A stretch of DNA of 64,000 nucleotides from a virus, in IMG/VR virus record IMGVR_UViG_3300050821_017570, positions 1-64,000 of that record; one strand, given 5' to 3'. Position numbers and translations under genes: made by a program. The notes below the pieces were generated by a model. That model was not told the DNA's origin and did no database searches. It worked only from the letters and a program-made list of their open reading frames with translations. Numbering within the stretch: the stretch's first letter is position 1; each line of letters starts with the position of its first letter. Shown piece by piece: positions 21,746 to 64,000 of the stretch.

Positions 21746-22567
21746 TTACCCTAGTTGGGTGATGATATCGTTAAGTTCATCAAACGCCTTGGTCACCGAT
21801 TTCGGTAGACCGGCGTAGCCGCCCTTCTGGCCTGAAGCCAGCGCGAGCAAAATAGCCTCAACCGTCTTGAGGGCCTGTGTGACCTGCGGGCCAGGATGTA
21901 CCTTTGGTGCCTGTATCAGATCAACCGGCTTGGCACTAAAAGCCTTCAGATCTGACACTACCGCCGGCGGTATCTCCGGAGCTGGTTCAGCCTCAGCTTC
22001 AGTCGAGTCGTCAACCATAACGGCCGGATCTGGAGTCGGTGGACGCATCAGCTCGGCTGGCGACGACTCCTGCAGCATCTTATCTTCTGCTGGCGAAGCC
22101 GCCTGAATCGCGCCACGATTTGCCAGCACTGCTGGTTCAGACATCTGTTTGAGCTTCTTCTCCATGTTGGGAGCCTTGATTTCGGATCCAGACGCCTGGG
22201 TCGCAAAGCTACGATCGAAGGCCGAAACCGGGCCAGTCTTATCCATTGTCGTCTTCGCACCCGGCACGGTCTCCAGGTTTGAGAATGCCGACTTACCACC
22301 TACCCCCATAACCGATTTACCCTTACGAGGCGGGATACCGGGGCGCCAATAGATGAAGTTAGTCGCATTATCATCCGGTAGCGTGCGGAACAAGCCGATC
22401 GGCACCTCGCCCTTGGAGTGCCACATACCTGCGCTAGCAAAATAGGTGGGCTCATTCGTGTGTGCCTTCACCTTACCATGCTGGTCAACCGTCACGCAGA
22501 TCACCTGCGGGGCTAGGGTGGCCCAATCCCAGATCTGGCCTGGTCTCTTAGTAGCAGAATCCACCAT
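21746..22567 (-). CDS. Unknown protein with disordered middle
   Basis: The 273-residue protein has an N-terminal part with aromatic segments (GQIWDWATLAPQVICV, FIYWRPGIP), a polar Pro/Glu-rich middle (about 130-200), and a short helical C-terminus (QALKTVEAILLAL). No known domain is evident. It is five bases upstream of the BCS1-like gene and probably co-transcribed with it. Confidence 0.75.
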   Translation of the reverse strand: MVDSATKRPGQIWDWATLAPQVICVTVDQHGKVKAHTNEPTYFASAGMWHSKGEVPIGLFRTLPDDNATNFIYWRPGIPPRKGKSVMGVGGKSAFSNLETVPGAKTTMDKTGPVSAFDRSFATQASGSEIKAPNMEKKLKQMSEPAVLANRGAIQAASPAEDKMLQESSPAELMRPPTPDPAVMVDDSTEAEAEPAPEIPPAVVSDLKAFSAKPVDLIQAPKVHPGPQVTQALKTVEAILLALASGQKGGYAGLPKSVTKAFDELNDIITQLG

Positions 22568-32763: not shown

Positions 32764-33354
32764 CTAAGTCAGAATGGCAGTGCCGGAAAACGCGTAGATA
32801 GACGAACTGGTGAGGCTGTTGCTATCTATATAAGCGATGGCTGTTTCTACGATAGTATTGGTAGAATCCATCACCGTTACGGCTGGGTAGGTACCTAGAT
32901 TATGATTGATGGTCCAAATTGCAGCCGCAACCCCTTGGGTGTAGAGGAAGGAGCCTTTGGTCCTATAGAGGGTGTCGGCTTCTGCTTCGCTCAGTCCGGG
33001 GGCAGCCAGTTGCCCCCAATATGGGGCAAGCGATGACGGCGGCACCCCAAGACTAGGTTCCAGCGCTAGATAGCTACCGCCTTGGTAGGCGACAATGTCG
33101 TTAACGAAATAACTGTCCGAGGACACCCAGTCGCCTCGGAAGTTGAAATCGACGTTACCACTGGAACCAACCTGTATCCACTGAGCCGCACCTGGGGTGT
33201 TGTCGCTGCACGCGTATAGGGTGAATGGGCTTACACCACGGTTCACCCATAGCATGCCATTGATGAACCCGGAATTCGCATCATCTGTAGTAGTTGGCGC
33301 CGCTACTTGATACGACACCATTGACGGGGACGTATTGCGAGCAATTGTGCGCAC
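32764..33354 (-). CDS. Short tail protein with shared SDD/GTLWVN adaptor module
   Basis: The 196-residue protein starts with an adaptor of about 60 residues (TTDDANSGFINGMLWVNRGV, then YACSDNTPGAAQWIQVG) nearly identical to that of the 853-residue spike. Residues about 65-110 resemble a carbohydrate-binding module (FRGDWVSSDSYFVNDIVAYQG). The C-terminus (WTINHNLGTYPAVTVMDSTN) is a fibre-tip type domain. It is likely an accessory fibre or an assembly adaptor. Confidence 0.85.
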   Translation of the reverse strand: MRTIARNTSPSMVSYQVAAPTTTDDANSGFINGMLWVNRGVSPFTLYACSDNTPGAAQWIQVGSSGNVDFNFRGDWVSSDSYFVNDIVAYQGGSYLALEPSLGVPPSSLAPYWGQLAAPGLSEAEADTLYRTKGSFLYTQGVAAAIWTINHNLGTYPAVTVMDSTNTIVETAIAYIDSNSLTSSSIYAFSGTAILT

Positions 33355-33429
33355 GATTGAAAGATTATGACGGTAACGTTACCGTCCTAGCCCATAATCT
33401 TGTGTTGCATGGCAAAACACTCAATAACC
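33355..33429. promoter_or_regulatory. Intergenic compound palindrome
   Basis: The perfect 18-bp palindrome gacggtaacgttaccgtc lies at 33369-33386 and is enclosed by a seven-bp inverted repeat (agattat/ataatct, 33362-33368 and 33394-33400). It sits between two fibre genes that share their N-terminal module. It could be a protein-binding site, an RNA structure or a weak terminator; there is no strong T-run. Confidence 0.55.
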
Positions 33430-35991
33430 CTAAGTAAACGCGCAATAATGCCAGGATCCACCATAGTAGGCCCATAGCTTACCATCTACCGGATCAATGC
33501 GGCACGCGATCCCATTGGGAAACGACGACTGTAAAACCGGGAAGCCTGTCGGTGCCCCTGGGGTGGAAGGCATGAAAAAGAAGCCAACCTGATCCGCGAC
33601 GTTAAACCCGCTTGGGTTACCCATCCCGACGTCACCACCCGATACCGTGTTGAGCCCTAACGGAAGTGCCCCAACGCCGTTCTGCTGGACCTGGACGGTC
33701 AATCCGGTGGGGCCGACTCCAAAGTCAGCCTGATAGGGAGTCGAGCCGTCAGGTACCAGAATGCGGAATGGGCCATCGGTTTCGACCCTACCGCCACTCG
33801 GGTTAAGGATTAGAGGGATGCTGCTGACGCCAGAATCCTGCGAATCAATGGTGTTGCCGGTGAGGTTGGATTCCATCCAAAGGATAGGGTTATGACCAGG
33901 CGAGGGAAGCCCCTGAACGATAAGGTTGGGAAACTCCCCCATCACGTTGATGGGCGACTCATTCGTATAGATGGCCTCGACCTCTACCAACGCATTCGCA
34001 CCTGTCCCACCATAGAGGGGCTGAGTGAGCTGGAAAAGCAGATTTGCATCTCCGGTAATTCGCGGGACAAACTTAAGCGTAATCGGACGCCACTCTGGCG
34101 TCATCTGAAGTTGCTGCGAATAGTGGTTGGTACCACCAGGGACTGCTTCCCAAATCGACACCTGTAGGAATGACAACGGATTTGACGAAGCTGCCTTCAC
34201 ATTCAGCTTCATAAAGATTGGTTTGCCAGCCACGACAGCTGACCCAGGCGCCAAGAGTGCCTGAATGGCAGACGTGGGGGTGGGTAGCGAAATCGCACCA
34301 GCGGATAACCGTCCATACGGGTTAAGTGTCGGGGTACAGGTTGCACCGCTCTGAAGGGAGAACCCATTGATAAGGTTGTAAGCGTTGTATCCAATCGTCA
34401 GGAGGGCGAACCCCACCATATCGTTGGACGTTAGCTGCGAGGTATCGTGCCCAGACTGGATCCGACCCCGTGGGTCTATGACAAACCCCATACCGGCGAC
34501 GTTCGATATATTGACCGAATAGAATGACGCCGTCCCAACCCCATCACCATAAAAGGGACCAAACTGATTGTCCGAATTATAGGCATCCGGATCAGGCTGG
34601 TAGAGCATCTGAAGGATGTAGGCGGGCGGGTACGGCAGCAAACACAACGGGCCAAACATGCATCCACGCAGATTAGGACACGTACTGTAGACGAATGGTG
34701 GAGATGGACTCCATCCCCCAACCTCGCACCCATTGAAGATGTGACCGGCAATGTATCCGTTGCTCACCCCGATCGCTACCGTCAACCCAGACACGCTACC
34801 TGCGGTGCCTGGGGCGGCCAAGACGGCGGTAGTGGGGTTGGTGACACTAGCGATGGTGGTGTGGAGGCTCAGTCCATATTGGAGCCCCTGCTTAACCACA
34901 ACGTTGCGCCCAACATCAGCAGACGTGAACACAGCGGTCGCGCTGGTGAGGGTGGTGGAATTATTCATCACCCCATCGGTTACGCTACGCCCCAACAGCG
35001 GCAGTCTGCCACCAGTATCTGAACCGGTCGAAAGATCCTCATCCGCATAGCAGACCGGAATCTCTGCCGTGCTGAGGTTCTCGCCACCAAACTTTGCAAC
35101 ACATGAGAAGCCCTGACCGGCGGGTTCATAAACCGGCGATGGTACCACCCACAGACCATAACGGCCATACGTGGTGTACGGATTGAGCCGAATGAACTCG
35201 CAAGCATGGATGTATGCGGCGTCCCCGCCCTGCATGAGCTTCAGACCCACACGATTATTGTTGAAGGCACATGAGATCCATGCCGACGAGTCAGGCTTAC
35301 CCGAGTGGGCAAACCCAATGGTCGTCTCGTCATTAGCGGCATTGAAGGTACAGTTCTGGACATGCCAATACGGCATATCTGAGGCCTGCGTATAGACAGC
35401 ACACCGCGTGTATTGAAGGAAATCCACATCACGAATCACATGTTGGTTCGTGACATTCACGCCAGTGAATAGGTGCTGAACCGCCCCAAGCCCACCACTA
35501 AACGAGATACCTTCTAGGTGAAAGCTGGTCCACTTGAGTGACGAACTGACAAAATAATTGCCAGATAGGACGATGCTGGTGACGGCGCGCCCATCGCCAA
35601 TGATGACAAGATTCGCGCCAGAGAGACCGGATCCGGTGGTGTAGTGGTAGGTCGAAGCTGGGAAGTAGAGCGCTAGGTTGCCAGATATGGCTACCGCCGC
35701 AGCTGCGTTGATCGCAGCGGTGTCATCCCCACCGGTCCCGACGTTCAGACCATAATTCTTAACATTCACCCACGCGACAGGTGTTCCGGTCGCACTGGTT
35801 GTCCCAACCTGGATCCATTGAGCCGCACCTGGGGTGTTATCGCTACACGCGTAGAGAGTAAACGGAGTTGTGGCTCTATTTACCCACAACATACCGTTAA
35901 TAAAACCTACCGTTGCGCTGTCATCGATTCCTGGCGCATGGGTCTTGTAGACCACCATCGCTGGTGACGTAGTGCGGGCGATGGTTCTCAC
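33430..35991 (-). CDS. Tail spike with pectin-lyase-like beta-helix
   Basis: The 853-residue protein begins with the shared adaptor (about 1-60). A segment VKNYGLNVGTGGDDTAAINAA then opens a right-handed beta-helix, with DTAAINAAAAVA, LYFPASTYHY and IIGDGRAVTSI as in phage depolymerase spikes. It ends with the C-terminal module GFFFMP-x-PGAPTGFP ... YGGSWHYC. It is a good candidate for a polysaccharide-binding or -degrading receptor protein; catalytic residues are not obvious. Confidence 0.85.
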   Translation of the reverse strand: MRTIARTTSPAMVVYKTHAPGIDDSATVGFINGMLWVNRATTPFTLYACSDNTPGAAQWIQVGTTSATGTPVAWVNVKNYGLNVGTGGDDTAAINAAAAVAISGNLALYFPASTYHYTTGSGLSGANLVIIGDGRAVTSIVLSGNYFVSSSLKWTSFHLEGISFSGGLGAVQHLFTGVNVTNQHVIRDVDFLQYTRCAVYTQASDMPYWHVQNCTFNAANDETTIGFAHSGKPDSSAWISCAFNNNRVGLKLMQGGDAAYIHACEFIRLNPYTTYGRYGLWVVPSPVYEPAGQGFSCVAKFGGENLSTAEIPVCYADEDLSTGSDTGGRLPLLGRSVTDGVMNNSTTLTSATAVFTSADVGRNVVVKQGLQYGLSLHTTIASVTNPTTAVLAAPGTAGSVSGLTVAIGVSNGYIAGHIFNGCEVGGWSPSPPFVYSTCPNLRGCMFGPLCLLPYPPAYILQMLYQPDPDAYNSDNQFGPFYGDGVGTASFYSVNISNVAGMGFVIDPRGRIQSGHDTSQLTSNDMVGFALLTIGYNAYNLINGFSLQSGATCTPTLNPYGRLSAGAISLPTPTSAIQALLAPGSAVVAGKPIFMKLNVKAASSNPLSFLQVSIWEAVPGGTNHYSQQLQMTPEWRPITLKFVPRITGDANLLFQLTQPLYGGTGANALVEVEAIYTNESPINVMGEFPNLIVQGLPSPGHNPILWMESNLTGNTIDSQDSGVSSIPLILNPSGGRVETDGPFRILVPDGSTPYQADFGVGPTGLTVQVQQNGVGALPLGLNTVSGGDVGMGNPSGFNVADQVGFFFMPSTPGAPTGFPVLQSSFPNGIACRIDPVDGKLWAYYGGSWHYCAFT

Positions 35992-36035
35992 GATGCTAGG
36001 CCAGCGTCGGTTAAATTAATCGGTCAGGATGGACA

Positions 36036-38183
36036 TCATGAGAGTACGACTGACTTCCATGCACCGTTGTAGGCGTAGAGCTTGTTGTCCGTGGTGTCGT
36101 AGCAAAGCGCTACGGTGGCACCGTGCGTGGTTGGGGTCCCGGTTGGGGCGCCAGCGACCGATGGGATATAGAGGAAACCATCAGTCGCCGCGTTAGCCAG
36201 TACGGTATTACCGATGACAGCAGACGCGGTCGCAACCGCCAGTGTGCCGTCAACGTGTAGGATTCCGCCACCGGTCCAGATATCGGAATTATAGTTCGTA
36301 TTCAGGAACAGTGACGAGCCACCAGGTGCCTCGATATAGAGGGCGTTACCGGCCACATAAATGGATCCGGTGGTGCCGTTGTTGGGCGCAACCTTGTCAC
36401 TGAAATTTAGAATCGCACTACCCGCGCTCTGTAGGGAGAGCCACGCCGTACCGGTGGTGGCGGATGCGGTATCGGTGATATTGATCACCAAGCCCTGGAA
36501 GGCCACCGATGCGCTGTTCCAGATCTGGGTGATCGTCAGAGGAGGCGTGCTGGCCGTAACGGTCCCACCAGCCATCGTCGAGGCTCCGCTGGCCCCCACA
36601 TGGAGGACACCGTTGCAGAAATCAACATCCGCACCATACGGATTGAAATAGAACGGAAGATACGAGACCCCAACCTGCTGGGCCTGGAATGCTGCCGAAA
36701 CCCCTGCGGTGACGTCGAGGAAGATGCATGTCCCACCAGTGGTGACCCCGTTTCCGATATAGAGCGGGTTGCCGACATCGCTGTAGAGGAAGGCGTGGTT
36801 GGCAGCAATGAACTGAAGGTACCCACTGTTGATCTGGACGCTTCCACCGTTGAAGACGGTCCCACCGGGCTGTACCGAGAATGTGGATGACCCCCCAACC
36901 TGCACATCGAGAATCTTAGAGCCAGCCGCAGACGCAGTATTCGTTACGTCAATTATGACGGTTTCGAAATTGACCGACCCGTTGTTCCAGGTCTGGCTGA
37001 CACTAATCAACGGAGTGCTGGCAGTAACGGTCGCATTCGGGAACACAATTGGGCCGGCACCCAGTGGGCCCACAACCGTGCTGGCGTGCTGGTAGTAAAG
37101 CCCAGACGTCGTCATCCAGATGTCGCCATCGCTTGGCGTGCTGGGCGCGGTACCTTCAGCGATATTGAGCGCCGCAGCGGCTGCAGAGGCGGCTGGGAAA
37201 AGGGCTCGGTATCCGGTGCTGACAAAGTGCACATCACCGCCAGCCCCATTGAACGAGATCGGCAGGTAAGAGGTGCCTTCCTGCTGAGCCTGGAAGGTGA
37301 CGCTGACCCCGGGGTTAATTTGCAGCTCAAGATTGCTGTTACCGGAGCCAACCCCATTACCGAAGAAGAGATTGTTAGGCCCAACCGTGCTGACCAGGAT
37401 GTAAGCCCCACCGGTGAACTGGAGATACCTACCCGTCCCATTGAGGGTCAGGGCGGTACCATCGAACGTCAGTGCGCTAGAGCCCGTCAGAATGTCGGGC
37501 CCACTCCCGTAGGCGACCTGATTGGTTGCGGCGCTCCCACCGAGTCCGCCCATCAGGGGACCCACTACACCGCTACCGTAGTTGTAGAACAACCCTGCGG
37601 TGGTCATCCAGACGTCACCGTTGTTAGGAATCGACGGAGCAGTGCCGAACGGGATGTTGAGGCTCGCGGTGAGAGACGTCGACGCTGGAGTCAGCACCTG
37701 ACCAATCGTCTGCAGCGACCCCTGCACCACCGTATTGCCACTACCCGCGATGGTGACCTGTGTGGTTGATCCGGCGACAAAGTTGAGGGTGCCGCCGTTA
37801 CCGTAGAGGCTCCAACCCGGACTACGACCATCACGGTCATGAAGGCTGAGCGCGGTCATGCTGCCAGCCAACTGGAGGGCTCCCCCGTCCGTATACGTTA
37901 GGTTGCTGGTTCCGGTGATGGTGTCTGTAGAGACACCAAACGCCACCTGGTTCGCCGAAATCGACCCACCGATACTTCCGCCTCCACCCCCGCCACCAAC
38001 CTGACCCCACGATGCGGCCCCGACGCTATTATCGGCACACATGTAAATCGTGCCAGGCGTGGTACTTGTATTGACCCAAAGCGTACCCGGTAGGTAGCCT
38101 ACCGACAAATCATCCGAGACCGTCGGTGCAGACGGATGATAGAAAACCGTTGATTTAAGAGTGTTGAAGCCCCATCGCAGCAT
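36036..38183 (-). CDS. Tail fibre with shared adaptor and repeated fibre modules
   Basis: The 715-residue protein has the adaptor PTVSDDLSVGYLPGTLWVN near residues 18-36, followed by a Gly stretch. Repeats such as GGSISANQVAFGVST, SIPNNGDVWMTTAGLFYNYG and TASTP-I-Q-WN-SVNF then recur. The C-terminal module GFLYIPSVAGAPTGTP ... YNGAW matches the 915-residue fibre. It lies 44 bases upstream of the tail spike gene and probably belongs to the same tail complex. Confidence 0.88.
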   Translation of the reverse strand: MLRWGFNTLKSTVFYHPSAPTVSDDLSVGYLPGTLWVNTSTTPGTIYMCADNSVGAASWGQVGGGGGGGSIGGSISANQVAFGVSTDTITGTSNLTYTDGGALQLAGSMTALSLHDRDGRSPGWSLYGNGGTLNFVAGSTTQVTIAGSGNTVVQGSLQTIGQVLTPASTSLTASLNIPFGTAPSIPNNGDVWMTTAGLFYNYGSGVVGPLMGGLGGSAATNQVAYGSGPDILTGSSALTFDGTALTLNGTGRYLQFTGGAYILVSTVGPNNLFFGNGVGSGNSNLELQINPGVSVTFQAQQEGTSYLPISFNGAGGDVHFVSTGYRALFPAASAAAAALNIAEGTAPSTPSDGDIWMTTSGLYYQHASTVVGPLGAGPIVFPNATVTASTPLISVSQTWNNGSVNFETVIIDVTNTASAAGSKILDVQVGGSSTFSVQPGGTVFNGGSVQINSGYLQFIAANHAFLYSDVGNPLYIGNGVTTGGTCIFLDVTAGVSAAFQAQQVGVSYLPFYFNPYGADVDFCNGVLHVGASGASTMAGGTVTASTPPLTITQIWNSASVAFQGLVINITDTASATTGTAWLSLQSAGSAILNFSDKVAPNNGTTGSIYVAGNALYIEAPGGSSLFLNTNYNSDIWTGGGILHVDGTLAVATASAVIGNTVLANAATDGFLYIPSVAGAPTGTPTTHGATVALCYDTTDNKLYAYNGAWKSVVLS

Positions 38184-57504: not shown

Positions 57505-57816
57505 TTAGGATTCGTACAACAGATACATGAGATCGCGGTCATGCAGGTCTTCAGGATATCCACTATATCCGTAAAAGTATAAGTTACTCCATTCGCTCCA
57601 AGTGCTTGCCGCCACTCGGGCGCTATCGCTCTCAACCGTGCCATCACTAGCGTAGCTGACACAGGTGTAGGTGAGGTGATACTGCCAACGATGCGTGTGG
57701 CCACCGCGATCATGCCGCTGGCCAGCACTACGGTCGATTCCTCGGATCGTGTACCGATATAGATGGTTTCGAGTCATCCAGACCTGACCGATCCGTAAGG
57801 GTGCCAAATCTGTCAT
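57505..57816 (-). CDS. GQxW family protein (member 1)
   Basis: The 103-residue protein has the family's N-terminal motif LRIGQVWMTRNHLYRYTI and the C-terminal LMYLLYES. The middle is Ser/Thr/Tyr-rich. It is the leftmost of about ten paralogues in 57.5-64 kb. It overlaps the next gene by four bases. A small beta-barrel is likely, and the function is unknown. Confidence 0.72.
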   Translation of the reverse strand: MTDLAPLRIGQVWMTRNHLYRYTIRGIDRSAGQRHDRGGHTHRWQYHLTYTCVSYASDGTVESDSARVAASTWSEWSNLYFYGYSGYPEDLHDRDLMYLLYES

Positions 57817-58103
57817 GGTGGAATCTTTCCATTTGGGTCACCAGCGGTTTCGAAACTTACTGGTGAGATCTCGCTAGCATACTCGCAGGTCTCGCCAGCC
57901 GCTCGGTTCAGCATACTGCTCGCCAATTGACCGTTTCCAAACGCGACCTTGATCGCTTCAAGCGTCTCGGCTGAAATCACATCGGTATGTGGGAACGTGC
58001 CGACACGTACCCACATCCCACGAGGTAGCATTGCGTATACGGCCTGCTGATCATCGAACCGAGAGACCACAAACTCTGGCACAAAATGTAACGTCTCATC
58101 CAT
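57813..58103 (-). CDS. Unknown protein
   Basis: The 96-residue protein has FVPEFVVSRFDDQQAVYAML, GTFPHTDVISAETLEAIKVA and NRAAGETCEYA. No family is recognised, and it lacks the GQxW motif. It overlaps both neighbours by four and eight bases. Confidence 0.62.
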   Translation of the reverse strand: MDETLHFVPEFVVSRFDDQQAVYAMLPRGMWVRVGTFPHTDVISAETLEAIKVAFGNGQLASSMLNRAAGETCEYASEISPVSFETAGDPNGKIPP

Positions 58104-58452
58104 GGTATGCTTTCGGGTCCCACAAGAGGGTTATGAGGTCCACACCTTCGGGATGATTTGGTGTCTGATGAAACCACCAGGCGGTCGAACCCATGTATGC
58201 GGTATAGATGGTGTCGCGATCGCCTAACGAAATGTCAGGATAATCTGGATGAAGCCCACACCGATATCCGTGGGAGTAGATCCGAACATCATACTTACCC
58301 AGACCGGATCGCACTCTCGTTACGTGCACAATCTCAACACGGTGTGACTGATCGCGCAGCTGCCAAATCTGACCCGCCCGCAGCATGGGTGGATAGACCC
58401 CCCAGTGGAGCGGGAACAACCAGCCCGGCAGGTTACTGACGAACCGCCACAT
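58096..58452 (-). CDS. GQxW family protein (member 2)
   Basis: The first ATG at 58452 abuts the upstream stop (TGATG), giving 118 residues; the ATG at 58386 would start just before the motif. It contains MLRAGQIWQLRDQSHRVEIV and ends VDLITLLWDPKAYHG, the clearest example of the C-terminal D-L-I-T-L-L-W-D-P motif. The middle is Asp/Tyr-rich. Confidence 0.78.
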   Translation of the reverse strand: MWRFVSNLPGWLFPLHWGVYPPMLRAGQIWQLRDQSHRVEIVHVTRVRSGLGKYDVRIYSHGYRCGLHPDYPDISLGDRDTIYTAYMGSTAWWFHQTPNHPEGVDLITLLWDPKAYHG

Positions 58453-59105
58453 CAGGTGGCCCGACAGAAGCCAAGTGAATCCAAGGTCTCGTTCGGGTCA
58501 CGGAAGTATCCGATGATCTGCTTGGGCGTCACCCGGTTGGTCCCACTCATGGTGCCACCGTTCTGGATCATCTGGATCAGAATGCCGACCGTGTCGATCG
58601 TCAGGTTCGACTGGCCGGTTTGTTCACGCAGGTACTTGGCGAACTCAGGCCAACTGGCCAGCTGGGCGTGCCCCTGACGGCTCATGATGCCTTCGCACAC
58701 GTAGGCCAACCCAATCGAGCAGCTCGGGAAGTGGGTCAGCAGTTGAACTTCGGGAATCTGGTAGAGCACCGACTCAACGTCGGCGACCGGGTTACGGAGG
58801 TAGCTATCGCACCAGCTGATGGCTCTCAGGAGGCCCAGACTGCGGGTGCAACCGATGACCTGTTCGGCTCGTAGGCTAAACGTCTGATCGAGCCATTCGG
58901 TCATCCGCTTGTCACGATACTCGTACCCACAGAGCGTGGTGGCCTCAAGCCCATCACCCCATGGCATGGACAGCGTCTGGGCCAACACGAGGTTCCACTG
59001 GGTCAGCTCGGGCTGCCGGACGAACTCAGGTGCATTCTTCAGGACGACAAGACCTGCTTTGGTCGCGCGAGCCAATTGGCCGGCGCGTTTCGATTGTTTC
59101 GACAT
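58452..59105 (-). CDS. Unknown protein
   Basis: The 217-residue protein has a basic N-terminus (RAGQLARATKAGLVVLK), a middle with SLGLLRAISWCDSYLRNP, and a Ser/Cys-containing C-terminus. No family is recognised. It lies between GQxW members 2 and 3 and shares their transcript. Confidence 0.65.
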   Translation of the reverse strand: MSKQSKRAGQLARATKAGLVVLKNAPEFVRQPELTQWNLVLAQTLSMPWGDGLEATTLCGYEYRDKRMTEWLDQTFSLRAEQVIGCTRSLGLLRAISWCDSYLRNPVADVESVLYQIPEVQLLTHFPSCSIGLAYVCEGIMSRQGHAQLASWPEFAKYLREQTGQSNLTIDTVGILIQMIQNGGTMSGTNRVTPKQIIGYFRDPNETLDSLGFCRAT

Positions 59106-59120
59106 GATGTGCTTTCTAGT

Positions 59121-59765
59121 TCACGAACCTGAACTGGTATCAGCCGGGTTGGGACCAGGATCCTGATCCGACGTCGGACGGGCCGGCTTCGCCATATCGT
59201 CCGGCTTGGGCCAATTCAGCGGACAGGTTCGCTGGCTCGAAACCGAACTATCGTCATCAAAGTACTGAACCCGTACCTCACTGGGGAGGCGACCGGCCTC
59301 AATCGCCTTGGCCGCACCCTCAGGCCAATCAAGCCGACGGGTCACCTCATGAGCCGTAGGTTCCGACATCACGCTGGCCTGGATCTCCTTGGCCAGCCCT
59401 TCGCCGTGCCGCTTATGGGCCGCCGGATCACGCGCGTGAGCCAGCCAGGTGACCCCCATGGCGGCCAGCTCGGGATCCTGCTGGGCCGACTTACCAGTGA
59501 CGAAGTCATTGTGAGCTTCATCGAACCCAGCATACCCGTGCTGTCTCGCCACCTGATCGATCTTGTGGGCCTGATCTCGTTGGTAGCGAATGCTGGCCCT
59601 ATGGTTGCGCCAGTACTTGAGTGCGATCCGGAAGGCGTCCCAGGCCGCATGGACGACAGATGGGCGACCCGTCGCTACAGGCATTCGGGTGGCTGGGTCG
59701 TATCGGTAGTTCTGCTGACGCTGCGAATGGTAGGCTGACCGAAACGACTGAATCAGGTTGAACAT
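59121..59765 (-). CDS. Unknown protein
   Basis: The start at 59765 follows AAAGGACCAT and gives 214 residues. The N-terminal half is helical with KYWRNHRASIRYQRDQAHK; the C-terminal part is polar and Pro-rich (KPARPTSDQDPGPNPADTSS). No motif is recognised. Confidence 0.65.
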   Translation of the reverse strand: MFNLIQSFRSAYHSQRQQNYRYDPATRMPVATGRPSVVHAAWDAFRIALKYWRNHRASIRYQRDQAHKIDQVARQHGYAGFDEAHNDFVTGKSAQQDPELAAMGVTWLAHARDPAAHKRHGEGLAKEIQASVMSEPTAHEVTRRLDWPEGAAKAIEAGRLPSEVRVQYFDDDSSVSSQRTCPLNWPKPDDMAKPARPTSDQDPGPNPADTSSGS

Positions 59766-59773
59766 ATGGTCCT

Positions 59774-60262
59774 TTAATCCAAATGATGGAGGAGCCACCA
59801 GACCGCCACTAACTCGCGACGGCTCATCAGGTGGAGGGGTCGGGCAGTCGCGCGTAACGCGACGATACGGTCAAAGATGGGGCCACAATCGGCTCGCTCG
59901 TCGGCCGACACCATCTCACAGATCTGCTGATCCAGCAGATCGATCTGGTGGGTCAACCGCCTAGACTGACCAGTCTGGAACAGCTCAGTCAGGCGAATCG
60001 CATCGGCCGCCTCATTGGCCATCAGGTTGGGCCAATAGATCAGGTGGTAGCGAATCTGACTGGTGACATAACTCAGTATGCCGACCTGATAGTCAGCCGA
60101 CGTGTAGTCACCGTGTGGGTCCACCAGAGCGGGCAAATGGACCTCGTCAGCCCACCGGCCGGCTGTGACGGTATCACCATAGGGCCAGTACCGTTCCATC
60201 GCTACCTCATGCGTGGCGAGCTGTTGACAGAACTCTGGCGTCAGTACCGATGGAGCACCCAT
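59774..60262 (-). CDS. Unknown protein
   Basis: The 162-residue protein has ADYQVGILSYVTSQIRYHLI and EYFQ-like segments, with a helical C-terminus (RRELVAVWWLLHHLD). RBS AAAGGACCCACT. Function unknown. Confidence 0.65.
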   Translation of the reverse strand: MGAPSVLTPEFCQQLATHEVAMERYWPYGDTVTAGRWADEVHLPALVDPHGDYTSADYQVGILSYVTSQIRYHLIYWPNLMANEAADAIRLTELFQTGQSRRLTHQIDLLDQQICEMVSADERADCGPIFDRIVALRATARPLHLMSRRELVAVWWLLHHLD

Positions 60263-60272
60263 AGTGGGTCCT

Positions 60273-60560
60273 TTATAGGAGTTGGGTCTCTACATGCAAG
60301 GCAGGATCGTACAGACACTGCGTGAGATCCCAATCCGATCCACACCGAGAGTGCCAGTAGTTGGCCGTGGCGATCCACCGGTAAGGCATGAGTTCACTCA
60401 CATGATCAGACCAACAGCCAGACGGCAACATACGGCGGGTATGCGGATGAACCCCTTCGGCATCAATGGTAGTGTCAACGATACGGTATCGATGCTGCTG
60501 GCTCCGACACAGCCAGACCTGACCTGGCAGCAATCTGCTGGGGTTTAGGATGGGGTCCAT
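60273..60560 (-). CDS. GQxW family protein (member 3)
   Basis: The 95-residue protein has LLPGQVWLCRSQQHRYRIVD near residue 10 and ends WDLTQCLYDPAL. It fits the GQxW family pattern with a slightly diverged C-terminus. The next gene overlaps its start by 16 bases. Confidence 0.75.
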   Translation of the reverse strand: MDPILNPSRLLPGQVWLCRSQQHRYRIVDTTIDAEGVHPHTRRMLPSGCWSDHVSELMPYRWIATANYWHSRCGSDWDLTQCLYDPALHVETQLL

Positions 60561-60814
60561 AGGAGTTGCCAGGTGTTGTTATCTCCGTCTTGAAACGCGA
60601 CATCGGACAACACTTTCGACACACGAAACGCCCATCCTGGGGACTGAATCGCTCCTTCATAGTTCCCCCAGTAATTCCATCCGAACCAGCGGTCACCGTG
60701 CCGGATGATGGCAACCCGATTGACTGATTCCTGTCGCAACTCAAAATATTCCCGATACATCCGCATCCAGATCTGTCCATGTCTGAACCGAATCGATGAT
60801 TTGTGTGGTTCCAC
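60545..60814 (-). CDS. GQxW family protein (member 4)
   Basis: The 89-residue protein has FRHGQIWMRMYREYFELRQE and ends WQLLWTPS. The middle has several Trp and Gly residues. The family motif is clear at the N-terminus. Confidence 0.75.
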   Translation of the reverse strand: MEPHKSSIRFRHGQIWMRMYREYFELRQESVNRVAIIRHGDRWFGWNYWGNYEGAIQSPGWAFRVSKVLSDVAFQDGDNNTWQLLWTPS

Positions 60815-60815
60815 G

Positions 60816-61172
60816 TTAGGTCTCGGTCGACCCTGCCTCAGGGTCCCAGTAGAGGAGAATGTAGTTGGCCTGGTCAGACGGGGTGTAGAACTGGGTAGGT
60901 GTCATGACTTTGATATCAGGCAGATAGTCAGAGAGTGGTCTAACCTCCGCATCATCACTTTCCAAAAATCTGAACACTGCGCCGCCGTGTGGTTTCAGCT
61001 CATACCCACCGTAGTAGCAGCCATGGAGACTCAGCCGCCCGCTAGGACCTTTGGCTCGGAAAACTGCGAAGTATTCGGTCATACGCTCGTAACGGCGTTC
61101 CTCACTGCCACAACGGTCTAATAGTGTCCCATGTTGGCGCCAAATCTGAAAGTGTTTGAAATGGTGCTTCAT
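60816..61172 (-). CDS. GQxW-like family protein (diverged member)
   Basis: The 118-residue protein starts FKHFQIWRQHGTLLDRC and ends NYILLYWDPEAG. HFQIW replaces the GQIW of the other members but keeps Q-I-W, and the end keeps the L-x-Y-W-D-P pattern. It overlaps the upstream gene by four bases. Confidence 0.68.
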   Translation of the reverse strand: MKHHFKHFQIWRQHGTLLDRCGSEERRYERMTEYFAVFRAKGPSGRLSLHGCYYGGYELKPHGGAVFRFLESDDAEVRPLSDYLPDIKVMTPTQFYTPSDQANYILLYWDPEAGSTET

Positions 61173-61483
61173 ATGATGGCCTGTTCTGTGTCTTCATACG
61201 TGAGAATCCAAGCGGTGCCGTGTGGTTCTACCAGCACGGTGGGCTCGATAAGTTTGGGCTGGCTAAGACCGTGTTGGAGTTTCCACGGCTTGGAAACACG
61301 CTGTAGGTAGGTTATTACCGTGAGACCACCTCGTACGGCGCTACGCTTGAAGAACCAACCACCCAAACGATCCCTGGTATTGTGGTGCCGCATGACCGCC
61401 ATCAACCACGGATCCTCAGGATCATCTGTAGCCTGCCAGAGCTGGAAGTGCCTGAAACAATCGTAGGGGTTCGGAGCCGTCAT
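61169..61483 (-). CDS. GQxW-like family protein (diverged member)
   Basis: The 104-residue protein has CFRHFQLWQATDDPEDPWLM and ends WILTYEDTEQAII. HFQLW is similar to the neighbour at 60816, so the pair forms a subgroup. ATGA overlaps on both sides. Confidence 0.65.
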   Translation of the reverse strand: MTAPNPYDCFRHFQLWQATDDPEDPWLMAVMRHHNTRDRLGGWFFKRSAVRGGLTVITYLQRVSKPWKLQHGLSQPKLIEPTVLVEPHGTAWILTYEDTEQAII

Positions 61484-61770
61484 GTTGGACTCCAGACGAG
61501 ATGGATGAGCGGGTAGTTGTCTAGCCCAGTGTGTCCTTTATCGCGGCTCCAAACTCCTCCGTAGCGATAGAACGTATTGGTGGTTGTCCTATGGTCACAA
61601 CTATACTTGGTTTCACAATCAATCGAATCGTCTCGTTTATACCGCTTGATAATCTCAACGATCTGGCAGGTCACCTCTTGATCGTCTGTCATCCAGATCT
61701 GACCGGCCTGTAGGTCACACGGTAAGCACGAGTCCTGGGTTGAACCCATTGGTTTCTCCTCGATAGCCAC
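61480..61770 (-). CDS. GQxW family protein (member 7)
   Basis: The 96-residue protein has CDLQAGQIWMTDDQEVTCQI and ends YPLIHLVWSPT. Cys residues near the N-terminus are extra. Alternative start at 61749. It overlaps the metallophosphoesterase by 56 bases. Confidence 0.75.
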   Translation of the reverse strand: MAIEEKPMGSTQDSCLPCDLQAGQIWMTDDQEVTCQIVEIIKRYKRDDSIDCETKYSCDHRTTTNTFYRYGGVWSRDKGHTGLDNYPLIHLVWSPT

Positions 61771-62614
61771 GCGGGTTGGCTACCAAACGGGTCTGGTCGA
61801 TATGAAAGTCAAACTCAGTATGGGTGTGACCGAAGCACCAGAGGTCTGGCTGGGTTCGGTAGATCAGATCATCCAGTGGGGCACAGAAATAGGGGTTCAG
61901 CCAATGGCCACGGAACTTTGGCGCAATCGCCTCCTCTGAGGGAATCCAATGGGTCAGCACGATCCGCTTGGGAGTAGGGATCTGCATGGCGCGATCGGCC
62001 CGTCGGAGCCAACCCGTTAGCCTCATCACGGCATCCTGGTGGGCCTCAATATGTCGGGCTGGAGTCCATTCAAACCTATCCCGCATGATGAGGTTCGGGC
62101 TAAAGTCGCTCACCCCTACCGAGGTGAGCCAGCAGTTGAGCCCAACCTCGGTGAGGCCGCCAGGTGGCGTCACCTGAATGGGAACCAACGGGTTCAGTGG
62201 GTTGACCAGTCTGAGGCCGTCACGCTCGATCCGCTGTCTCAGATCGGGGTCCAGCGATATGGTGAGGCCGCTCCACAAGGGGGTTCCGTAGATCTCATAG
62301 GGTTGGCCCCCAACCATCAGGGTGGTGGCCTCGTTGTGAAGCAACGTCACATGCGGACATTCCTGAAGTGCGGCCTTGAAATACGGTGACAGGAGATCTT
62401 TATGCCGGAGATCCTGAGAGTCGGTGTGGTAGAAGTCATGGTTACCGAGCACCAAATAGACAGGCCGTTCAATCTGGTTGAGAAAATCGATCACCAGTTT
62501 GGGTTTAGACCAGTGGCCCAAATCCCCACATACGCAGGTGATGTCGGCCTCCACCTCCGGCAACCCAAGGTAGCGGCCCTCAAGATGGAGATCACTAATG
62601 AGGTGAAGCCGCAT
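61715..62614 (-). CDS. Calcineurin-like metallophosphoesterase
   Basis: The 299-residue protein shows the full motif set: DLHLEG near residue 8, GDLGHW near 31, GNHDFYH near 57, HWIP near 229 and GHTHTEFD near 261, ligands for a two-metal centre. Bacterial relatives hydrolyse cyclic nucleotides or other phosphodiesters. A phage copy could degrade a defence signal molecule or process nucleotides; the substrate cannot be told from sequence. Confidence 0.9.
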   Translation of the reverse strand: MRLHLISDLHLEGRYLGLPEVEADITCVCGDLGHWSKPKLVIDFLNQIERPVYLVLGNHDFYHTDSQDLRHKDLLSPYFKAALQECPHVTLLHNEATTLMVGGQPYEIYGTPLWSGLTISLDPDLRQRIERDGLRLVNPLNPLVPIQVTPPGGLTEVGLNCWLTSVGVSDFSPNLIMRDRFEWTPARHIEAHQDAVMRLTGWLRRADRAMQIPTPKRIVLTHWIPSEEAIAPKFRGHWLNPYFCAPLDDLIYRTQPDLWCFGHTHTEFDFHIDQTRLVANPRGYRGETNGFNPGLVLTV

Positions 62615-62881
62615 TTAGCCTTCTGGGTTGTAGATAAGGGTTATGAGATCAAGCCGTTGAGGATCGGTGGTCCCAAGATCATCGAAACGATAATAGGAGC
62701 CATCAGGCGATGGAACCCACCTATACGTTAGATTAGCTAGTCGCATACCATCGGTATGAAACCATCGACACTGTATCCGACCATCTGGCCATGGGTTTGT
62801 ATCTACTTTCAGACGCCAATCCTGATCCCTAGAGAGCCAAATCTGCCCGGCCTTAAGCGGAGCTAGCACGGTGGCTCCCAC
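62615..62881 (-). CDS. GQxW family protein (member 8)
   Basis: The 88-residue protein has LKAGQIWLSRDQDWRLKV and ends RLDLITLIYNPEG. It is one of the best examples of both conserved ends. Its stop immediately precedes the metallophosphoesterase start. Confidence 0.8.
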   Translation of the reverse strand: MGATVLAPLKAGQIWLSRDQDWRLKVDTNPWPDGRIQCRWFHTDGMRLANLTYRWVPSPDGSYYRFDDLGTTDPQRLDLITLIYNPEG

Positions 62882-63120
62882 AGCAGAGTGATGAGATCGT
62901 CCTGTGATGGATTACTCGGCAGGAACGCCCAATAGGCATTATTATAGGATGGTCGCCAATGAAGTTTTGTGGCACCGAAACCAGCAGACCCGGTCGAACG
63001 ATCCCGAAACGTGACTTCAAGCCAACCCTCAGTCGACGTAACGGGCTCACCAGTTACCTGGATACGACGATCCTGTCTCCGGCAGAGCCACACCTGGCCC
63101 TGTCGTAGTGGTACTAACAT
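62863..63120 (-). CDS. GQxW family protein (member 9)
   Basis: The 85-residue protein has LRQGQVWLCRRQDRRIQVTG and ends DDLITLLWEPPC. It overlaps its downstream paralogue by 19 bases. The family pattern is complete. Confidence 0.82.
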   Translation of the reverse strand: MLVPLRQGQVWLCRRQDRRIQVTGEPVTSTEGWLEVTFRDRSTGSAGFGATKLHWRPSYNNAYWAFLPSNPSQDDLITLLWEPPC

Positions 63121-63130
63121 GCAGGCCCCT

Positions 63131-63871
63131 TTAGCGTGGGGTTGTGTGCCTCAAACTGCCAGACAGACGGAAGCTGCGACGCTCCCGTCGTGACCCCACG
63201 GGGGCCGCATGAGCCATCCGGAATCTGCGGACCTCAGCATCGCTCACACCCTCTAGGGACGCGAACTCAAAATTCGTCGCTTGGTTCCACCGCATGGTAT
63301 GCAGGTCGAAATACCCAATGTAACCACCCTTGGCCAACTCAAACGCTCGGTGAACGTTCTGCCGGAAGCTACACGGGCCGACAAACCCAGGTTCGAACCA
63401 CTGAGGGGTCACGAAGTCACTCACGAGGGTGTTGTTGATCTTATACCCTAACGAGTCGTCTTCGACCGCATCAGCTACCTCGTAAGCCATGATGCGTGCG
63501 GTATGTGGGTCCAACACCGAGAGATTAACGTAGGGGTCTAAAATTTGCTCAAGAAGTTCGTGACTCACCGTAACTGACAACGCGTCGCCCGCCTGCTGGT
63601 CCGCCCGGGCAAACACCTTGCCGATCGGCTTGCCTGAGCTACTAAGGTCGTGGTATCCAAGCGCTCCAGCCTGATCCGCATCGTCCAGAATCAGCAGCTG
63701 CCAACACGCCGGGTCGATCGGATCGGTTCGACCGCAGAACTCCAGATGTGCATCAAGATCCCAGATTGGTGCAAAGTCCCTACTGATCTGGGTTTGAAGA
63801 TCTGGCACCATTGCCGCCACCACCGCATCTGATGTAATGGTCGAATGGTTAATCAGGCTGATACAGATCAT
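63131..63871 (-). CDS. Zincin-like protein with SHELLEQ motif
   Basis: The 246-residue protein has SVTVSHELLEQILDPYV near residue 100, a pattern in which SHELLE is followed by DP, and an upstream strand LILDD. The H-E-x-x-E arrangement is non-canonical for a zincin, so metal binding is plausible but unproven. The C-terminus is basic (RRERRSFRLSGSLRHTTPR). Function unknown; a metallopeptidase role is inference. Confidence 0.65.
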   Translation of the reverse strand: MICISLINHSTITSDAVVAAMVPDLQTQISRDFAPIWDLDAHLEFCGRTDPIDPACWQLLILDDADQAGALGYHDLSSSGKPIGKVFARADQQAGDALSVTVSHELLEQILDPYVNLSVLDPHTARIMAYEVADAVEDDSLGYKINNTLVSDFVTPQWFEPGFVGPCSFRQNVHRAFELAKGGYIGYFDLHTMRWNQATNFEFASLEGVSDAEVRRFRMAHAAPVGSRRERRSFRLSGSLRHTTPR

Positions 63872-63886
63872 GTGGGACCTCGCCGG

Positions 63887-64000
63887 CTAACCTACTTGGT
63901 CGATTGGGTCCCACAAGAGGGTGATGAGGTCAGTTATGCGTACAATGTCCGGCAGCTCGTCTGAAGAGCACTCGTGCCAATAGTCGCCGGTGCGGCCGAC
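63887..64000 (-). CDS. GQxW family protein C-terminus (member 10, cut by right edge)
   Basis: Only the C-terminal 37 codons are inside the window. They end TDLITLLWDPIDQVG, which matches the family's C-terminal motif. The N-terminal half lies to the right of the window. Confidence 0.7.
   Translation of the reverse strand, partial: VGRTGDYWHECSSDELPDIVRITDLITLLWDPIDQVG

Follow-up and report, generated by a model that had tools for sequence, protein, structure and literature searches.

In the genome of the tailed phage analysed here, one small protein has diverged into at least 42 copies, and the conserved tail of these copies, L[LI][WY][DE]P, is, judging from the junctions between the genes, also the carrier of the signals for the next gene, which is new here. 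This array is best explained, at a little under even confidence, as the expansion, within this lineage, of a single small all-beta domain, the copies of which would be coupled, host-directed binding proteins.

The window, a stretch of 64,000 nucleotides, corresponds to bases 1-64,000 of a viral record of 187,139 bp, which is possibly incomplete. Tail-fibre-like proteins and tRNAs are encoded in the window, and genes for a terminase, a family A DNA polymerase and a ribonucleotide reductase lie elsewhere in the record; this gene content identifies it as that of a tailed phage, which is isolated and new among the records compared. Indeed, (i) a megablast search with the last 14 kb of the window against 50,697 phage records returned no match, (ii) the terminase shares at most about 31% identity with its closest counterpart, across half of its length, and (iii) the DNA polymerase shares about 24% identity with its closest counterpart. 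Relatives were also sought in IMG/VR with the terminase, an SbcC-like protein and the phosphoesterase, and none was confirmed.

Elsewhere in the record, a ThiF/E1-like gene (PF00899, E 1e-20) lies next to a gene for a protein of 222 aa whose ThiS/ubiquitin-like matches are weak (108,867-110,274, minus strand); this pair adjoins two large genes without Pfam match and is possibly a ubiquitin-like conjugation module in a phage. Five consecutive genes (151,513-156,266, minus strand) start alike, with YP or FP ahead of acidic residues (e.g. ERVYPFVD, QRSYPLFD), and are possibly a second tandem family; the one pair compared matched over just 16 aa (E 8e-4). In the tail-fibre region of the window (32764-38183), three consecutive proteins, two of which are large, have in common an N-terminal G[FY][IL][NP]G[MT]LWVN when read by eye. 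At the N terminus of the family A DNA polymerase (100,989-104,036) there is a weak uracil-DNA-glycosylase-like match (E 1.5e-4), which falls short of the family cut-off. A protein encoded at 181,303-182,055 begins with a helix-turn-helix-like segment, and its end is Cys/His-rich and resembles, by eye, the recombination endonuclease VII type.

The size of the family was established with sequence profiles. A single member used as query against the record gave 24 matches. A profile built from an alignment of 39 members (alignment A1) recovered all 39 together with weaker matches. In a search of 2,568 ORFs, taken from the two strands and spanning most of the record, at least 42 distinct members scored E<0.01, including three (77625, 96666 and 122931) that are absent from the alignment. 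The top score among reversed ORFs was only E 0.28. All 42 members are encoded on the minus strand and total 12,045 bases, or 6.4% of the record. A 13.3-kb block (57,505-70,801), which extends beyond the window, holds 32 of them, and the other ten are located near 77.6, 84.3, 96.7, 115.3-116.0, 119.1-119.9, 122.9 and 180.8 kb. Tentative candidate members are two neighbouring genes at 128.0-128.9 kb, the heads of which read GQ[IV]W and the tails YDP or YTPP; an ORF at 21746 with an N-terminal GQIW was rejected, as the curated profile gives no match to it.

As any profile will recognise the sequences that went into it, the aligned members were also scored one by one, each against a profile of the 38 others. 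At E<=1e-5, 36 of the 39 aligned members were recovered, the exceptions being 60545, 61169 and 60816. Seven members in the window, with start codons inferred throughout, scored between E 7e-12 and 2e-17, and their reversed or shuffled copies scored below 7 bits. In brief, these seven genes, all on the minus strand, include: 57505..57816 (103 aa, head PLRIGQVW, tail DLMYLLYES, E 4.8e-12); 58096..58386 (start at 58386 or 58452, head LRAGQIW, tail DLITLLWDPKAYHG, E 3e-16); 60273..60560 (95 aa, head LLPGQVW, tail CLYDP, E 1.2e-12); 61480..61749 (start at 61749 or 61770, tail LIHLVWSPT, E 7e-12), which has a 4-nt ATGA overlap with the next gene; 62615..62869 (tail DLITLIYNPEG, E 2.4e-13), the GTG start of which lies within the tail of 62863; 62863..63120 (tail DLITLLWEPPC, E 2e-17), the subject of the structure model; and 63887..64000 (E 1.8e-15), which is cut at the window end and is complete in the record (63887-64171).

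Two further minus-strand genes, 60545..60814 (89 aa, head FRHGQIW, tail WQLLWTPS, E 0.26), the end of which overlaps the start of the next member by 16 nt, and 61169..61483 (104 aa, head FRHFQLW, E 0.16), are probable divergent members, and 60816..61172 (minus strand, 118 aa, head FKHFQIW, tail YILLYWDP, E 19) is a possible one. Taken as single hypotheses, 60545 and 61169 reach p of about 1e-4 each, versus marginal database-wide E-values, and their heads are alike (F-R-H-[GF]-Q-[IL]-W). All three genes are adjacent and have a common head, F-[RK]-H-[GF]-Q-[IL]-W, and on account of these heads and of the normal LLWTP tail of 60545 we read them as a divergent branch of the family, 60816 being the least certain. 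An earlier reading of the sequence, made without database searches (hereafter the sequence-only reading), had described one duplicated family with about ten members in 6.5 kb. The ORFs that it named are all present, the existence of a single family is upheld by the 42 members found with the profile and by the 36 of 39 recovered by leave-one-out, and its count is an understatement for the 187-kb record; among the genes that it took as members, seven are certain, 60545 and 61169 are marginal and 60816 is weak.

Information in the profile peaks at L8-R9-x-G-Q-[IV]-W14, R22, I25, V28, W52, W/Y64 and D76-L-I-x-L-L-[WY]-[DE]-P84. The members are rich in tryptophan (4.8% versus 1.6%) and in arginine (9.1% versus 4.9%) and poor in lysine, with a near-neutral mean net charge of -0.6. 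The codons of GQIW track genome usage (CAG in 31 of 39, versus 79%), so the head is conserved as protein, and the idea of a DNA repeat or recombination site is not supported.

Structures were predicted for two members. For 62863, AlphaFold2 with alignment A1, which holds only paralogues from this same genome, gave a model with a mean pLDDT of 90.6, in which six strands form a small all-beta barrel, the first strand being at GQVW and the last at LITLLW. For 60816, a prediction with 14 relatives gave a pLDDT of 49.5 and no confident fold. The members probably adopt a small barrel fold, on the basis of the one confident model and of sequence homology, and the small beta-barrel suggested in the sequence-only reading is supported by that model. 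Information in the profile is densest in the strands at GQ[IV]W and LITLLW, plus W52 and W/Y64, and, as modelled, the core strands are conserved and the loops variable; the middles of the proteins do differ strongly, as had been noted earlier, yet W52 and W/Y64 are conserved mid-protein too.

A Foldseek search with the 62863 model against the PDB gave beta-lactoglobulins as best match (E 0.23, TM about 0.4, for a threshold of E<=0.001), and against viral models the best match was at E 0.08, the weak matches including DUF1653 and carbon storage regulator entries. The profile against PDB sequences gave a best E of 0.051, none being significant. The SH3-like barrels of DUF1653 (PF07866) are likewise small and all-beta, with a weak Foldseek resemblance (TM about 0.4), but PF07866 has no match in this genome at E<=10; in a control with 14 genomes, PF07866 gave a signal in Bacillus subtilis only, below the cut-off.

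The junctions between copies were classed by reading the 3' ends in register. An overlap is present at 25 of the 28 close family-to-family junctions. Where the tail has W, the overlap with the next gene is 4 or 7 nt long, and TGGGA, formed by the W-[DE] codons, stands a few bases 5' of the next start (e.g. CTG TGG GAG CCA CCA TGC TAG), which strongly suggests that the W-[DE]-P codons supply a Shine-Dalgarno sequence for the next gene. At the 7-nt overlap at 62863..62869 (minus strand), for example, W-E-P-P-C-stop is encoded by TGG GAG CCA CCG TGC TAG, and these codons include the GTG that starts the next gene as well as a GGGAG resembling a Shine-Dalgarno sequence. After Y tails, the next start is the ATG inside TATGA, in a different frame, and the overlap is 14, 17 or 20 nt; in TAT GAC CCC ACC GCT TAG, the same bases encode YDPTA-stop and MTPPLR. 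The tail of 67404 ends in RYDPPG. A Shine-Dalgarno-like sequence was searched for upstream of the Y-type starts and none was found; six of the nine Y-type genes have no upstream start codon in the open frame, which leaves no alternative to the TATGA start. The W tails comprise 13 short overlaps and one long, and the Y tails one short and nine long (Fisher p=7e-5). The sequence-only reading, in which most members are linked by short ATGA-type overlaps, needs refinement: the overlapping family junctions are mostly of 4 or 7 nt after W tails, and mostly of 14, 17 or 20 nt after Y tails.

Among the members that are not overlapped by a downstream family gene, 14 of 17 keep the tail aromatic. This indicates that the tail is under selection as protein and is exploited by the overlaps, and the notion that the overlaps alone account for the tail motif was rejected on the same grounds. 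The three members that lack the aromatic are all solitary copies (84296, 96666 and 180764), so overlap may help to maintain it. From the overlap geometry we infer translational coupling of the copies. Short co-directional overlaps have been tied to translational coupling, and the array has in common with known termination-reinitiation pairs the same co-directional short overlaps, the 4-nt ATGA included (PMC6728339, PMC10666635). Unlike those pairs, it has 25 overlapping junctions inside one paralogous family, and another class of junction, with overlaps of 14-20 nt, where the conserved tyrosine codon contains the next start. Promoter and terminator scans did no better than on shuffled sequence.

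Adjacent copies are closer to each other than shuffled pairs (mean 0.114 versus 0.070; none of 5,000 permutations as high), and 68719/68949 and 119441/119682 stand out as young tandem pairs. In these two youngest tandem pairs, dN/dS is 0.27 and 0.32, respectively, with dS >1, from simple site counts, which take no account of the overlapping ends and give rough values at such dS. These values indicate that the copies are kept as functional proteins and that their divergence is old and under purifying selection; the fast divergence, typical of host conflict, that had been proposed from the sequence alone is not supported as stated. Diversification at a few loop residues may be compatible with these whole-gene ratios.

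The block is tightly packed, and its members are interleaved with phosphoesterase, MazG-like, RNase_T exonuclease and unnamed genes; none of the named neighbours is a virion gene. The phosphoesterase (61715..62614, minus strand) is a calcineurin-like metallophosphoesterase (Pfam PF00149, E 4e-13; phrog_1649, E 6e-30) and not a family member. A singleton ORF (63131..63871, minus strand) with a SHELLEQ stretch is metallopeptidase-like by eye and has no match in Pfam or PHROG. These two genes had been suggested to belong to the functional unit of the family; they do lie in the same tight block, but position alone says little about a shared unit, since MazG-like and RNase_T genes are there too. 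The calcineurin-like phosphoesterase, MazG and RNase_T of large phages have counterparts in the block, which are single genes here and are unrelated in sequence to the barrel family.

Profile searches for phage and bacterial relatives, which the sequence-only reading had proposed, found none across the databases and 792 bacterial genomes. Pfam, NCBIfam, PHROGs and PADLOC gave no significant family common to the members, with isolated single-member matches at best E 0.004, and no relatives of the family were found in INPHARED. Two family sub-alignments and two junction DNA patterns confirmed no relative in IMG/VR, and two matches to the junction pattern in bacterial genomes were both chance on inspection. 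No relative was accepted among the 792 bacterial genomes (393 + 399), which were drawn around these two chance matches and not around a known host; four matches at E<0.01 per genome were judged chance, as the three inspected were head-only and the fourth crosses stop codons. These searches consisted of exact-pattern scans, BLAST and HMMER at set thresholds, and distant relatives elsewhere are possible. Searches of the literature turned up no account of such an array.

As we infer the function, host-directed binding is, we think, likelier than assembly or modulation of gene expression. The sequence strongly suggests that the copies are translated serially from long mRNAs, each tail helping to start the next gene, with the W-[DE]-P tail giving the Shine-Dalgarno sequence and the Y-[DE]-P tail holding the start codon. 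They would be non-identical binding scaffolds produced together during infection, the loops of each copy contacting a different partner and the conserved core holding the fold, and the likeliest partners would be host proteins that act in defence, transcription, translation or nucleotide metabolism. The copies may include inhibitors of host proteins, as the sequence-only reading had suggested. The young pairs are under purifying selection and show no trace of an arms race, which counts against this host-directed reading. Its full form, in which the phage carries a tandem-duplicated repertoire of dozens of binding proteins on one barrel scaffold, with different host targets and with each conserved tail signalling translation of the copy that follows, is possible and rather doubtful.

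The copies could alternatively be subunits of one hetero-oligomeric assembly (e.g. shell, sheath or scaffold), the synthesis of which would be synchronised by the overlaps. Genes for subunits of heteromeric complexes are enriched in short co-directional overlaps (PMC10666635), and the frequency of overlap at the close junctions, the constant core and the near-neutral charge are consistent with such an assembly; however, ten copies are scattered outside the block, the series is broken by singleton genes and the named neighbours belong to nucleotide metabolism, which makes it unlikely. The predicted small barrel, together with its weak likeness to small viral proteins such as the DUF1653 and carbon storage regulator entries, would also suit SH3/Tudor-like modulators of RNA polymerase, ribosomes or nucleic acid that tune host or phage expression. 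This proposal is improbable, given that the best structural match is just E 0.08, that the genome has no DUF1653 match and that net charge and lysine content are low, although arginine is abundant. A dosage effect or ratchet, in which repeated tandem duplication with little specialisation is locked in by shared start and stop signals that hinder loss, would agree with the higher average likeness of adjacent copies, compared with random pairs, and with the two prominent young pairs; the deletion of one gene would be disruptive given the overlaps. Purifying selection, the motifs retained despite deep divergence and the dispersed copies, which are free of overlap locking, render it very unlikely.

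In compact phage genomes, an orphan domain that takes up 6% of the sequence with over 40 diverged copies demands explanation. The array is a natural variant library of one scaffold, useful for partner mapping, and a case of a conserved protein motif encoding the start signals of the next gene by two alternative solutions.
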